This document shows positions 27,799 to 39,344 of a stretch of DNA of 64,000 nt, in pieces. Each line of letters begins with the position of its first letter. Within the stretch, counting starts at the first letter, position 1. The stretch covers positions 1 to 64,000 of the forward strand of contig JAIBEX010000004.1 in NCBI GenBank assembly GCA_019459455.1, given 5' to 3'. The position numbers and the translations under genes were made by a program. Origin of the DNA: Weeksellaceae bacterium (GTDB taxonomy: Bacteria; Bacteroidota; Bacteroidia; Flavobacteriales; Weeksellaceae). The notes under the pieces were generated by a model that saw nothing but the letters and a program-made list of their open reading frames with translations, did not search any database and was not told where the DNA came from.

Positions 27799-28638
27799 TT
27801 ATGAAATCCACTGGTTTTCACCAAAATCAGGTTTTCTTTTTTCCAGAAAGGCGTTCCTGCCCTCTTTGGCTTCATCGGTCATATAGGCAAGACGGGTGGC
27901 TTCGCCCGCAAAAACCTGCTGGCCTACCATTCCGTCGTCGGTAAGGTTCATTGCAAATTTGAGCATGCGGATGGACATCGGGGATTTCCCCAATATTTCC
28001 TGCGCCCACTCATAGGATGTTGCTTCAAGTTCAGCATGGGGGATTACCGCATTTACCATTCCCATGGCTTCTGCTTCCTTAGCAGAGTAATTCCTTCCGA
28101 GGAAGAATATTTCACGTGCTTTTTTCTGTCCGACCATCTTTGCGAGGTAAGCGGAACCATAGCCTCCGTCAAAACTCGTCACGTCGGCATCGGTCTGTTT
28201 GAAGATGGCATGCTCCCCGCTGGCCAGAGTCAGGTCGCAAACCACGTGCAGGGAATGGCCGCCGCCTACGGCCCAACCGTTTACCACGGCGATCACTACT
28301 TTGGGCATAAAGCGGATCAGCCGCTGGACTTCCAGGATGTTCAGCCGGTGCCTGCCATCGTCGCCAACGTATCCTTTTTCGCCACGGGCTTTCTGGTCAC
28401 CGCCGCTGCAGAAGGCATGACCTCCGTCCTTCGGGCTCGGACCTTCGCCGGTGAGCAAAACAACCCCTACTGAAGCATCTTCGGAAACGTGATAAAAGGC
28501 ATCATACAATTCAGAAGTGGTTTTGGGTCTGAACGCATTCCGCACTTCAGGTCTGTTGAAGGCAATTCGTGCTACCCCACCGGATTTTTGGTAGGTGATA
28601 TCTTCGTATTCTTTTACAGTTTTCCAGTCTGGCTTCAT
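27799..28638 (-). CDS. menB: 1,4-dihydroxy-2-naphthoyl-CoA synthase (MenB)
   Basis: A crotonase-fold enzyme that closes the naphthoate ring from o-succinylbenzoyl-CoA. Visible are RPEVRNAFRP (29-38), the oxyanion-loop GGHAFCSGGDQKARG (about 72-86), VNGWAVGGGHSLHVVCDLTLAS and TSFDGGYGSAYLA, which carries the MenB-specific Tyr. 279 aa is typical. It leads the cluster ending in menA. Upstream is the decayed island at 28639-29706. Confidence 0.96.
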   Translation of the reverse strand: MKPDWKTVKEYEDITYQKSGGVARIAFNRPEVRNAFRPKTTSELYDAFYHVSEDASVGVVLLTGEGPSPKDGGHAFCSGGDQKARGEKGYVGDDGRHRLNILEVQRLIRFMPKVVIAVVNGWAVGGGHSLHVVCDLTLASGEHAIFKQTDADVTSFDGGYGSAYLAKMVGQKKAREIFFLGRNYSAKEAEAMGMVNAVIPHAELEATSYEWAQEILGKSPMSIRMLKFAMNLTDDGMVGQQVFAGEATRLAYMTDEAKEGRNAFLEKRKPDFGENQWIS

Positions 28639-28805
28639 TGATAAAAATTTTGCGGTAAAGATAACGATTTTACCGCCCTAAGCAAACCGTTCTACGGCGA
28701 ATTCAGTAGCAGCCACCTTACTTCCGCCAATAATAGTATGAATATCGGTGGGAGCGTTTTTAGGGGCCAAAGAAAGGCCACTACCGTTCACTATATAATT
28801 AAAAA
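28639..28805. other. Spacer with an unassigned coding-like stretch
   Basis: On the minus strand a frame from about 28804 to 28679 reads NGSGLSLAPKNAPTD, HTIIGGSKVAATEFAVERF and a stop. It looks coding-like but has no ATG and lies beyond a terminator; the plus strand is open over the same stretch. It may be the tail of a decayed gene. No family was recognised. Confidence 0.3.
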
Positions 28806-28830
28806 GCCTTATAACTTGGTATTATAAGGC
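28806..28830 (-). terminator. Intrinsic terminator of the two-gene small-ORF unit
   Basis: GCCTTATAA and TTATAAGGC form a perfect nine-base-pair stem around a seven-base loop. On the minus strand it is followed by TTTTTAATTATA. It overlaps the last codons of the 57-aa gene, so transcription ends right at its stop. Confidence 0.75.
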
Positions 28831-28982
28831 ATATAACTGATAAAAGCCTGGCATCCGGTAGGTTTACCGCAATAGGGTTGGTCCTTTACCGCCACCGGAA
28901 TTCGGTTGTGCATTTGCACACCTGAGGCATTAATAGAGATAGAATTCGGTTTTGAACATTCGACGGCAACGTGCGAACTATG
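28809..28982 (-). CDS. Tiny conserved-looking protein, unknown function (57 aa)
   Basis: The sequence from ATG at 28982-28980 is MHSSHVAVECSKPN, then ISINASGVQMHNRIPVAVKD, then QPYCGKPTGCQAFISYMPYN and TKL. It has three Cys (two as CGKPTGC), which could bind metal or form a disulfide. Its ATG lies inside the end of the upstream 49-aa gene (shared GATGCATAG), so the two are translationally coupled. A strong terminator overlaps its stop. No family was recognised; the strand-turn-strand character with INASG and VAVKD faintly recalls PAAR-like tips but is not convincing. Confidence 0.45.
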   Translation of the reverse strand, partial: HSSHVAVECSKPNSISINASGVQMHNRIPVAVKDQPYCGKPTGCQAFISYMPYNTKL

Positions 28983-37894: not shown

Positions 37895-38593
37895 TTAAAT
37901 CCTGACTAATATTCCGGTCAAAACTGCAATTCCAAAACTTAACAAAGTCCCTATCAGTACATACTCGGTAAGTTTTCTCTGCTTAGCCTCGGCCAGATCG
38001 CTGAACCGGAACACCGATTTTGCCGCAATCATAAATCCTACTCCTTCCCAGTGATTCACCACGATGAAGGTAAAGACTAATAAACGTTCCAGTATGCCAA
38101 TATATTTTCCTGCATTTGTAAGGCTGTCCGTCTGCATCTTGCCGTGCTCCATTGTAACAGGAGTCCACGAAGAAAGCAGGATCTTAATCAGCACAGAAAC
38201 CGGCATGGTAAGGAACAGTGCTCCCGTTATGTAGATGAGCACTTCCGGCCGTGACAGGAGTTGCATATCAATCTGATCAGTATAGCATGCGATCATGAGT
38301 ATTACCGACACATGAAGAGCCTGGTCCGCAAAGAACCATATTCTTTTCGTTTTGGGTTTCTGAAGATGAAGTTTCAGCGCGTCGATGATGAAATGGGAGA
38401 TTCCGACGAGGGTAGCTATCCACCATAAGTCCAGATCCCACAGAAACAGGAAGCATAATGCGGTATGCACAAGGGTGTGCAGGTAAAGGTAGGGGCTCGC
38501 GGTTTTCTTCTCTTCCTTGTGCGCAACCCATTTGTTCGGCTGTAAGATGAAATCTCCGATTAAGTGCGCCAGTATGAGTTTTGTGAGGATCAT
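37895..38593 (-). CDS. DUF3307 polytopic membrane protein (232 aa)
   Basis: About six hydrophobic helices. Polar residues lie within or next to the membrane in a conserved-looking arrangement: LAHLIGDFILQP (8-19), LYLHTLVHTAL (about 37-47), ISHFIIDALKLH (about 65-76) and FFADQALHVSV (about 88-98). This HxxGDFxxQ / HFxIDxxK / DQxxH pattern is the DUF3307 signature. Function unknown; the buried His and Asp residues would suit an enzyme, ion conductor or ligand sensor. It starts two bases after the stop of the SatD-like gene and is certainly co-transcribed with it. Confidence 0.85.
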   Translation of the reverse strand: MILTKLILAHLIGDFILQPNKWVAHKEEKKTASPYLYLHTLVHTALCFLFLWDLDLWWIATLVGISHFIIDALKLHLQKPKTKRIWFFADQALHVSVILMIACYTDQIDMQLLSRPEVLIYITGALFLTMPVSVLIKILLSSWTPVTMEHGKMQTDSLTNAGKYIGILERLLVFTFIVVNHWEGVGFMIAAKSVFRFSDLAEAKQRKLTEYVLIGTLLSFGIAVLTGILVRI

Positions 38594-38595
38594 CT

Positions 38596-39198
38596 TTACA
38601 GTTGAGAGATTCGTTTCCGGAAAAATTTGTCTGTTTCGGCAATCAGGTCATAGTTGGCCCTCTTCAGGCGCTGGCTTACGGATGACTGCGAGATGTTGAG
38701 CTGCTGTGCCACCTGTTCCTGGTTCTGCGCGGAATCCCTGATAAAAATATTGACTATTTCCGCCGATACGACAGACCAGCTGTCCAGGCTCACACTCATC
38801 CATTTAAAGGTAAGGTTCATCATTTCATCAAAATCCTGATGGTCTGAGCTTATACTCAGGTTCAGTTTTTCTGCTTTTATCCGCTCGAAATTCCTGCCGG
38901 AGTTCACAAAGGCGCTTCCGTTGGACTGCGTTACTTTTGCGGCCTGAAAATCCTGCGCGCCCAGTCCTATGGAAAGACGTACATCCAGTCCCTGAATATT
39001 CCTGATTCTTGATTTGATTTCGATTGCCTTGCTGAAGGAGTCTTCTGCACGCTGAATCAGTAACTGGAATTCATCGCCGCGGTATATTTCCCAGACCTGC
39101 TCGTTTTCTTCGCCAAACACCTCACGCAATGCGTGATGCCAAATTTCCGGCTGGATGCTTTGAGAGTTGATGATGTCTCCGGTGATGACCGCTTTCAT
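38596..39198 (-). CDS. SatD-like protein: cyclase-like N-terminal domain plus C-terminal helix-turn-helix (200 aa)
   Basis: The match is to the SatD family (named from a streptococcal secretion and acid-tolerance locus), whose biochemistry I do not know to be established. Seen in the sequence: a first strand AVITGDIINSQ with Asp8, then EIYRGDEFQLLIQ (37-49) resembling the GGDEF turn, DVRLSIGLGAQ like the VSIG strand of GGDEF and cyclase domains, and GSAFVNSGRNFERIK recalling the GxAVNxAxRLE helix of class III cyclases. The last 40 residues (NQEQVAQQLNISQSSVSQRL) form a helix-turn-helix. The cyclase reading is inference by eye. It heads a two-gene unit with DUF3307. Confidence 0.82.
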   Translation of the reverse strand: MKAVITGDIINSQSIQPEIWHHALREVFGEENEQVWEIYRGDEFQLLIQRAEDSFSKAIEIKSRIRNIQGLDVRLSIGLGAQDFQAAKVTQSNGSAFVNSGRNFERIKAEKLNLSISSDHQDFDEMMNLTFKWMSVSLDSWSVVSAEIVNIFIRDSAQNQEQVAQQLNISQSSVSQRLKRANYDLIAETDKFFRKRISQL

Positions 39199-39203
39199 AG
39201 GTG

Positions 39204-39211
39204 CAAATATA
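39204..39211 (-). promoter_or_regulatory. Promoter -7 element almost touching the satD-like start codon
   Basis: TATATTTG on the minus strand ends five bases before the ATG at 39198. Transcription would begin at or within a base or two of the start codon, giving a leaderless mRNA. A second, weaker element (TATATTTTC) lies about 27 bp further upstream and could give a normal leader. Confidence 0.55.
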
Positions 39212-39307
39212 ATAAATTTAGCTCAGGGGCGAAAATATAAATTAAATCGCTTATAAAATTGAATATTAGTAAAAAAGCTTATAAATGCTACAAACTCAAA
39301 AAAAAAT

Positions 39308-39328
39308 GCACCTTCATTTATCAGGTGC
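39308..39328 (-). terminator. Intrinsic terminator of the DoxX-family gene
   Basis: GCACCT and AGGTGC pair around a nine-base loop. On the minus strand the stem is followed by ATTTTTTTTT. Confidence 0.75.
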
Positions 39329-39344
39329 GTTTACGTTTTTTTGT

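Follow-up and report, generated by a model that had tools for sequence, protein, structure and literature searches.

In Panoptes (OptS/mCpol with OptE), a toxic membrane effector is kept in check by the product of a palm enzyme (PMC12657218, PMC12657230), and this system is the nearest worked-out parallel to the locus that we describe here, a satD gene followed by a membrane-protein gene in a 64,000-nucleotide stretch of the Weeksellaceae bacterium assembly GCA_019459455.1 (contig JAIBEX010000004.1, positions 1 to 64,000; the window). Both are two-gene operons that pair a small palm-fold protein with a membrane protein, and by analogy the inhibitory logic of Panoptes would match, although SatD gives no mCpol (PF18182) match in a Pfam scan, carries a helix-turn-helix (HTH) and an operator array, and has a partner modelled as all-helical, with no S-2TM-beta barrel. 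Pycsar (PycC with PycTM) also sets a cyclase-fold protein beside a membrane protein, and the SatD fold matches a cyclic UMP (cUMP) synthase, but the pair matches neither the class III cyclase family nor a PADLOC Pycsar model, and the class III Asn and Arg are unconserved in SatD. GGDEF diguanylate cyclases hold the palm closest to SatD by sequence profile, with RGDEF in register with GGEEF; SatD differs from them in having RGD[ES]F in place of GG[DE]EF, with a variable fourth residue, in giving no Pfam GGDEF (PF00990) match, and in its fusion to an HTH. Autoregulated type II toxin-antitoxin (TA) operons and restriction-modification controllers likewise begin with an HTH gene whose own promoter carries palindromic operators, followed by a presumably harmful gene, whereas the SatD regulator contains a palm with a conserved metal site and its operators lie in arrays with a 28-29 bp period. 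Computationally, the pair has the adjacent genes and, it appears, the HTH autoregulation through promoter operators by which type II TA systems are recognized.

Our preferred reading, held tentatively and at somewhat less than an even chance, is that SatD, through a nucleotide that it makes or holds, restrains a growth-toxic membrane partner within a self-regulating two-gene unit. The two minus-strand genes are separated by 2 bp (satD ends at 38596 and the partner starts at 38593), and both pass the curated cut-offs of Pfam families hitherto known only as names: SatD scores 34 bits against PF16264 (cut-off 29, E 3.1e-8) and the partner 96.6 bits against DUF3307, PF11750 (cut-off 23, E 1.4e-27). 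Many true SatD members score below the PF16264 cut-off. A previous interpretation made from the letters alone (the sequence-only reading) had proposed a SatD-like cyclase-fold protein coupled to a DUF3307 membrane protein; its coordinates, both Pfam assignments, the motifs that it quoted from SatD (AVITGDIINSQ, IYRGDEFQLLIQ, LSIGLG and GSAFVNSGRNFERIK) and the HTH, seen in the Pfam scan and in an AlphaFold2 model, are all borne out. Its observation is thereby confirmed and its interpretation partly supported, and the constant partner domain, the operator array with autoregulation, and the pattern of orphans and essentiality go beyond it. The features of the locus are as follows.

38596-39198, minus strand: satD, encoding a 200-residue palm-fold and HTH protein (Pfam SatD match, E 3.1e-8; AlphaFold2 pLDDT, the predicted local distance difference test, 95.9)
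38785-39198, minus strand: SatD palm domain, residues 1-138, predicted b-a-b-b-a-b-a-b topology (b, strand; a, helix; fold and profile matches)
39175-39177 and 39073-39075, minus strand: codons of D8 and D42, both within the SatD palm
38602-38772, minus strand: SatD HTH, residues 143-199, with recognition helix 171-180 (AlphaFold2 model; covariation of residue 176)
37895-38593, minus strand: membrane partner, 232 residues (Pfam DUF3307 on residues 2-105; hydrophobic segments)
37895-38131, minus strand: constant C-terminal membrane domain of the partner, residues 155-232, with GxxIGxxER, K(S/T)xxR and EYxxxG (short homologues; residue conservation)
38261-38593, minus strand: optional N-terminal DUF3307 region of the partner, residues 1-111 (Pfam; conservation across partners)
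39208-39283, minus strand: putative operator array upstream of satD, half-site TATAAG, period 28 bp (20-bp palindromes, 6-8-6)
39204-39211, minus strand: TATATTTG, presumed -7-like promoter element (strong conservation in 69 Weeksellaceae upstream regions)

The AlphaFold2 model of SatD (mean pLDDT 95.9) consists of a palm, with strand 2-10, helix 17-28, strands 36-39 and 43-48, helix 51-66, strand 72-80, helix 95-110 and strand 114-117, followed by the C-terminal HTH. Searched with Foldseek, this model placed GGDEF domains on top (E 8.5e-4) and further matched class III cyclases, GTP cyclohydrolase III, the Pycsar cUMP synthase and Cas10/Cmr2, while a second-look structure comparison gave Z 9.2 for GTP cyclohydrolase III (3.3 A over 107 residues), 8.7 for Cmr2 and about 8.2 for GGDEF domains and class III cyclases. 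These near-tied matches place the modelled fold and do not place the function. When single sequences were compared, SatD matched neither a GGDEF domain nor a Pycsar cyclase (one of each), but comparison of profiles succeeded: 100 SatD palms against 24 GGDEF domains gave P 74.9 and E 2.6e-5, with RGDEF aligned on GGEEF, and the same palms against class III cyclases gave P 31 and E 5e-4, with GD on GD, compared with P 0.2 for a negative control. Foldseek, the second-look Z values and the profile comparison support a cyclase, GGDEF or Cas10-type palm; the sequence-only reading had noted by eye a resemblance to cyclase and GGDEF palms.

Residue conservation, counted over 100 non-redundant SatDs, singles out part of the expected active site. 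As in GGDEF domains, the palm carries the metal-site Asp residues on the first strand and in the turn between the second and third; D8 is kept in 97/100 and D42 in 99/100, alongside S12 (97/100), Q45 (95/100) and R74 (94/100). Of the three acidic residues earlier put forward for a two-metal site, these two lie at the metal positions and are almost invariant; the third, E43, is not conserved, position 43 being S in 51/100 and E in 37/100. The helix earlier likened to that of class III cyclases fails in the same manner, with the Asn and Arg equivalents weakly kept (N99 in 33/100, R102 in 52/100), and the Pfam scan returned no class III cyclase (PF00211) match for SatD. Because E43 and the class III equivalents are poorly kept, SatD is neither a canonical GGDEF protein nor a class III cyclase: from the aligned family, the D8 and D42 metal positions are under strong constraint, and the rest of the site conforms to neither type. 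The 34 residues from D8 to GDEF, previously remarked on as unusually few, fall at the short end of a family range of 31-45 (commonest 36) and so provide no argument against a palm. As a search of the whole window genome at E 1e-3 found no PF00990 or PF00211 match, SatD is the sole cyclase-fold candidate found there by these searches.

The two genes occur together far more consistently than chance adjacency, the alternative left open at the outset, would allow. Full-length SatD is present in 31 of 99 related genomes and DUF3307 in the same 31, always as the next gene, and no genome holds one gene alone. Across the phylum, 395 Bacteroidota genomes include 101 with SatD and 95 with DUF3307, distributed as 89 with both, 12 with SatD only, 6 with DUF3307 only and 288 with neither (odds ratio 356, Fisher p 5e-67), and several of the 12 SatD-only genomes hold a diverged partner that falls below the Pfam model. 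The partner was present at 80/80 genome-scan loci and undetected at 6 of the 193 loci examined (some fetched twice); three of these six (L046, L156 and L176) reflect start-codon choice or a contig edge, and L158, L160 and L166 are left as orphans. SatD and its membrane protein are an obligate pair, found across bacteria and archaea.

The window partner has about seven hydrophobic segments and is modelled as entirely helical (pLDDT 87); comparison of the model with the PDB gave no useful match, which says nothing on whether the fold is new. The small membrane protein encoded after satD in Agrobacterium and Sphingomonas parapaucimobilis aligns with just the final 75 residues of the window partner, and such minimal partners, of 138-155 residues, occur in Agrobacterium, Sphingomonas (138 residues) and the haloarchaeon Natronosalvus; short SatD partners are also found in some Bacteroidota. 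Conservation is concentrated in this C-terminal portion (G166, E169 and K192 in 90/91 partners, R170 in 89/91, and R196, Y211, G215 and S219 in 88/91), and the DUF3307 residues are present in about 78/91. Because the minimal partners lack DUF3307, we rejected it as the partner-defining domain. As judged from these alignments, the constant part of the SatD partner is an unnamed C-terminal membrane domain, for which no Pfam family was matched, and DUF3307 is optional; the coupling of SatD to a membrane protein that the sequence-only reading proposed is retained, with this domain in place of DUF3307 as its essential part. For the Agrobacterium pAt partner (L193:5902-6309), the start given in the annotation lies too far downstream; homology to Sphingomonas spans 137 residues. 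Two further loci (L227 and L228) combine a very diverged SatD with a 106-residue partner that weakly matches the C-terminal domain, and the minimal partner form may be wider than sampled.

Upstream of satD, the window contains 20-bp palindromes (6-8-6) at 39264-39283 and 39236-39255 and, in degenerate form, at 39208-39227, the proximal one overlapping TATATTTG, which resembles the -7 element of Bacteroidota promoters and is strongly conserved in the 69 Weeksellaceae upstream regions. Two tandem palindromes, defined by a common half-site, at most 3/24 mismatches and an 8-bp spacer, are found in 75/100 non-redundant satD promoters and in 8/375 control promoters taken at these loci (p 1e-55), with a period of exclusively 28 or 29 bp and usually two to four palindromes per promoter. 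A free scan for any palindrome pair separated poorly from shuffled DNA, whereas the fixed spacer and 28-29 bp period separated. Half-sites vary by lineage, in 39 forms that include those of haloarchaea and Agrobacterium, and in relatives the tandem pattern is almost confined to satD promoters. Among 179 variable SatD positions, residue 176 of the recognition helix covaries most strongly with the half-site (z 14.6), followed by position 172 (z 7.8), and positions 170 and 173 likewise rank among the first five, four of which lie in or beside that helix. Shared ancestry inflates these z-scores at all positions but would not single out the recognition helix. The correspondence could be read once sites were oriented as TATNNN (57/75 were orientable; an unoriented mutual-information run was uninformative): Q at position 176 accompanies TATAAG or TATTAG, R accompanies TATTAC, K accompanies TATTCC, and E, D or G mostly accompany TATCG or TATCTG. 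Given the array and its covariation with residue 176, the palindromes are very probably SatD's own operator, through which SatD would regulate its own operon. Elsewhere in the window, a perfect 9-bp inverted repeat (GCCTTATAA-N7-TTATAAGGC, within 28794-28842) upstream of a menB-like open reading frame (27799-28638, minus strand) fits the tandem-operator pattern with 2 mismatches; it is distant from satD and, as far as seen, has no link to SatD.

Two of the three partnerless SatDs are altered at the metal site, with D8 replaced by H in L160 and, in L166, D8 by K and D42 by N. L160 retains its palindrome array, and a purely regulatory derivative of SatD may thus exist. The third, L158, has an intact metal site, but the partner encoded after it has lost about 160 internal residues; this locus (L158:9422-9661) is a second satD copy in a genome that also holds an intact pair (L157), and both promoters carry the half-site ATCAAC/GTTGAT. 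L187 has V at position 8 despite its partner, which may be a start or alignment artefact. Of the partners found without SatD (6/395 genomes), L220 has no C-terminal domain, L222 is truncated in front, and the remainder carry changes at positions conserved in the other partners, for example S193 or K192. One metagenome-assembled genome (80% complete, 7% contaminated) retains the operators at the purC locus and a 42-codon satD relic with a SatD-like start and end, the partner being gone, which fits joint decay of the pair. In Streptococcus pyogenes, satD (178/249 genomes) is the only accessory gene that is essential in all transposon studies (PMC11323703); to be essential when present and yet absent elsewhere is the pattern expected of an antitoxin-like gene, and, provided that this partner also follows satD in S. 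pyogenes, we regard this as the strongest outside evidence for restraint of the partner by SatD.

A metal-binding palm, a membrane partner, autorepression, and joint gain and loss fit a relation of restraint. In such a self-contained, self-regulating unit, the SatD palm would be expected to bind a magnesium-nucleoside triphosphate (Mg-NTP) through D8 and D42, and the HTH would repress the operon by occupying at least two of the tandem palindromes that overlie the satD promoter. The partner would sit in the membrane through its constant C-terminal helical domain, with the conserved E-R, K, R and E-Y, often after DUF3307, and in the resting cell SatD would keep it inactive through the nucleotide that it makes or holds. 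Loss of SatD or of its nucleotide would then free the partner, which would also be overproduced, and harm the membrane. The best reading of this logic is inhibitory, antitoxin-like or Panoptes-like. The analysis itself shows the modelled fold, the kept metal positions, the obligate pairing, the constant domain of the partner, and the operator array with its protein-DNA covariation; we infer the nucleotide chemistry, the toxicity of the partner, the direction of control, the trigger and any role in defence. Several findings weigh against this proposal. With E43 and R102 unconserved, any chemistry of SatD would differ from the standard diguanylate cyclase and adenylate cyclase reactions; three related Bacteroidota genomes hold a near-full-length partner without SatD; and the fixed site of the pair in Weeksellaceae, beside purC, resembles that of a resident gene more than that of a defence cassette. 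Moreover, Kremer et al. in 2001 are reported to have obtained viable nonpolar satD and satE mutants of Streptococcus mutans, which speaks against strict essentiality. We consider it doubtful, though worth stating, that the pair represents a widespread inhibitory module built from parts unrelated to those of Panoptes, in which a GGDEF-like palm joined to an operator-reading HTH would synthesize a nucleotide that keeps a new kind of membrane toxin inactive, guarding the cell against interference with nucleotides by phages or plasmids.

The main competing explanation, to which we assign a real but minor share of probability, is that SatD is a non-catalytic nucleotide sensor whose palm binds, for example, Mg-NTP and switches HTH repression of a housekeeping operon, the membrane product being a transporter or envelope enzyme for a stress such as acid. 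The HTH fusion and operator covariation are consistent with such a sensor, as are the derivation of the SatD family name from an acid-tolerance operon, the lack of a clear defence enrichment on Bacteroidota chromosomes, and the single fixed site that the pair occupies beside purC-purF in Weeksellaceae, which indicates vertical inheritance there. A pure regulator, however, has no need to remain tied to the same membrane domain in lineages as far apart as Bacteroidota and haloarchaea, or to travel on a 3.77-kb mobilizable plasmid with hardly any other cargo, as the pair does on E. coli pEC34A, and a satD that is essential yet accessory (PMC11323703) is easier to understand with a toxic partner. 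Outside Weeksellaceae, the pair is found in varied genomic contexts, with plasmid copies in Segatella, Vibrio, Salinivibrio, Pseudoalteromonas, Sphingomonas, Agrobacterium, Pseudomonas, Enterobacter, Klebsiella, E. coli and haloarchaea and one further copy on a chromosome-size Fusobacterium record. DNA similarity revealed no chromosomal copies in E. coli, and a search for a phage origin turned up no relatives of SatD or DUF3307 among phage records and viral contigs at the sensitivity used.

We think it improbable that the pair works by activation as in Pycsar or CBASS, with a dormant SatD producing on infection or stress a signal that turns on the partner and leads to death or arrest. The palm matches do include the Pycsar cUMP synthase, the partner is a membrane protein, and the Sphingomonas insulae copy adjoins a Pycsar system and a TIR gene, but a synthase that represses its own gene would be unusual in such systems, and activation predicts that loss of satD is harmless, contrary to its essentiality in S. 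pyogenes (PMC11323703). The enrichment in defence islands that the sequence-only reading had proposed to look for also did not appear on Bacteroidota chromosomes, where the top PADLOC family among nearest neighbours was found at 4/131, compared with 3/113 for control genes from random regions of the same genomes; in the absence of a clear excess, an association with defence islands is not established, though defence or TA genes surround several of the plasmid copies. Among individual copies, one is flanked by integrases with a RelE/ParE toxin, another lies near an AAA ATPase, a helicase and DUF4365, and another lies near DUF4365, MNT-HEPN and HipA genes. Least probable of all is a protein-protein TA system in which SatD neutralizes the partner by contact and autorepresses like a type II antitoxin, since, for all that the two-gene operon, HTH autoregulation and mobile copies accord with it, a palm serving as mere scaffold would not keep D8 and D42 in 97-99/100 relatives, nor lose them when the partner is absent.

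In the window, the pair is flanked by a DoxX-like gene, on the upstream side of satD, and by purC-purF. A minus-strand hairpin with a T run after it (39304-39332), just upstream of satD and at the end of the DoxX-like gene, is probably the terminator of that gene and would set it apart from satD. The closest named record that we found is that of Chryseobacterium sp. MFBS3-17, whose SatD is 83% identical.

In the literature searched, the two families are known by name, and the palm with conserved metal positions, the constant partner domain and the operator covariation code are not described. The operator code offers a direct handle on the self-regulation of SatD, as its sites can be read from a genome. 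The essentiality of satD in S. pyogenes was reported without explanation (PMC11323703), and restraint of a toxic partner by a cyclase-fold protein, if true, would explain it. Such restraint would, in addition, assign a role to two unnamed bacterial and archaeal families, and inhibitory nucleotide signalling would gain a second form, one coupled to an HTH.
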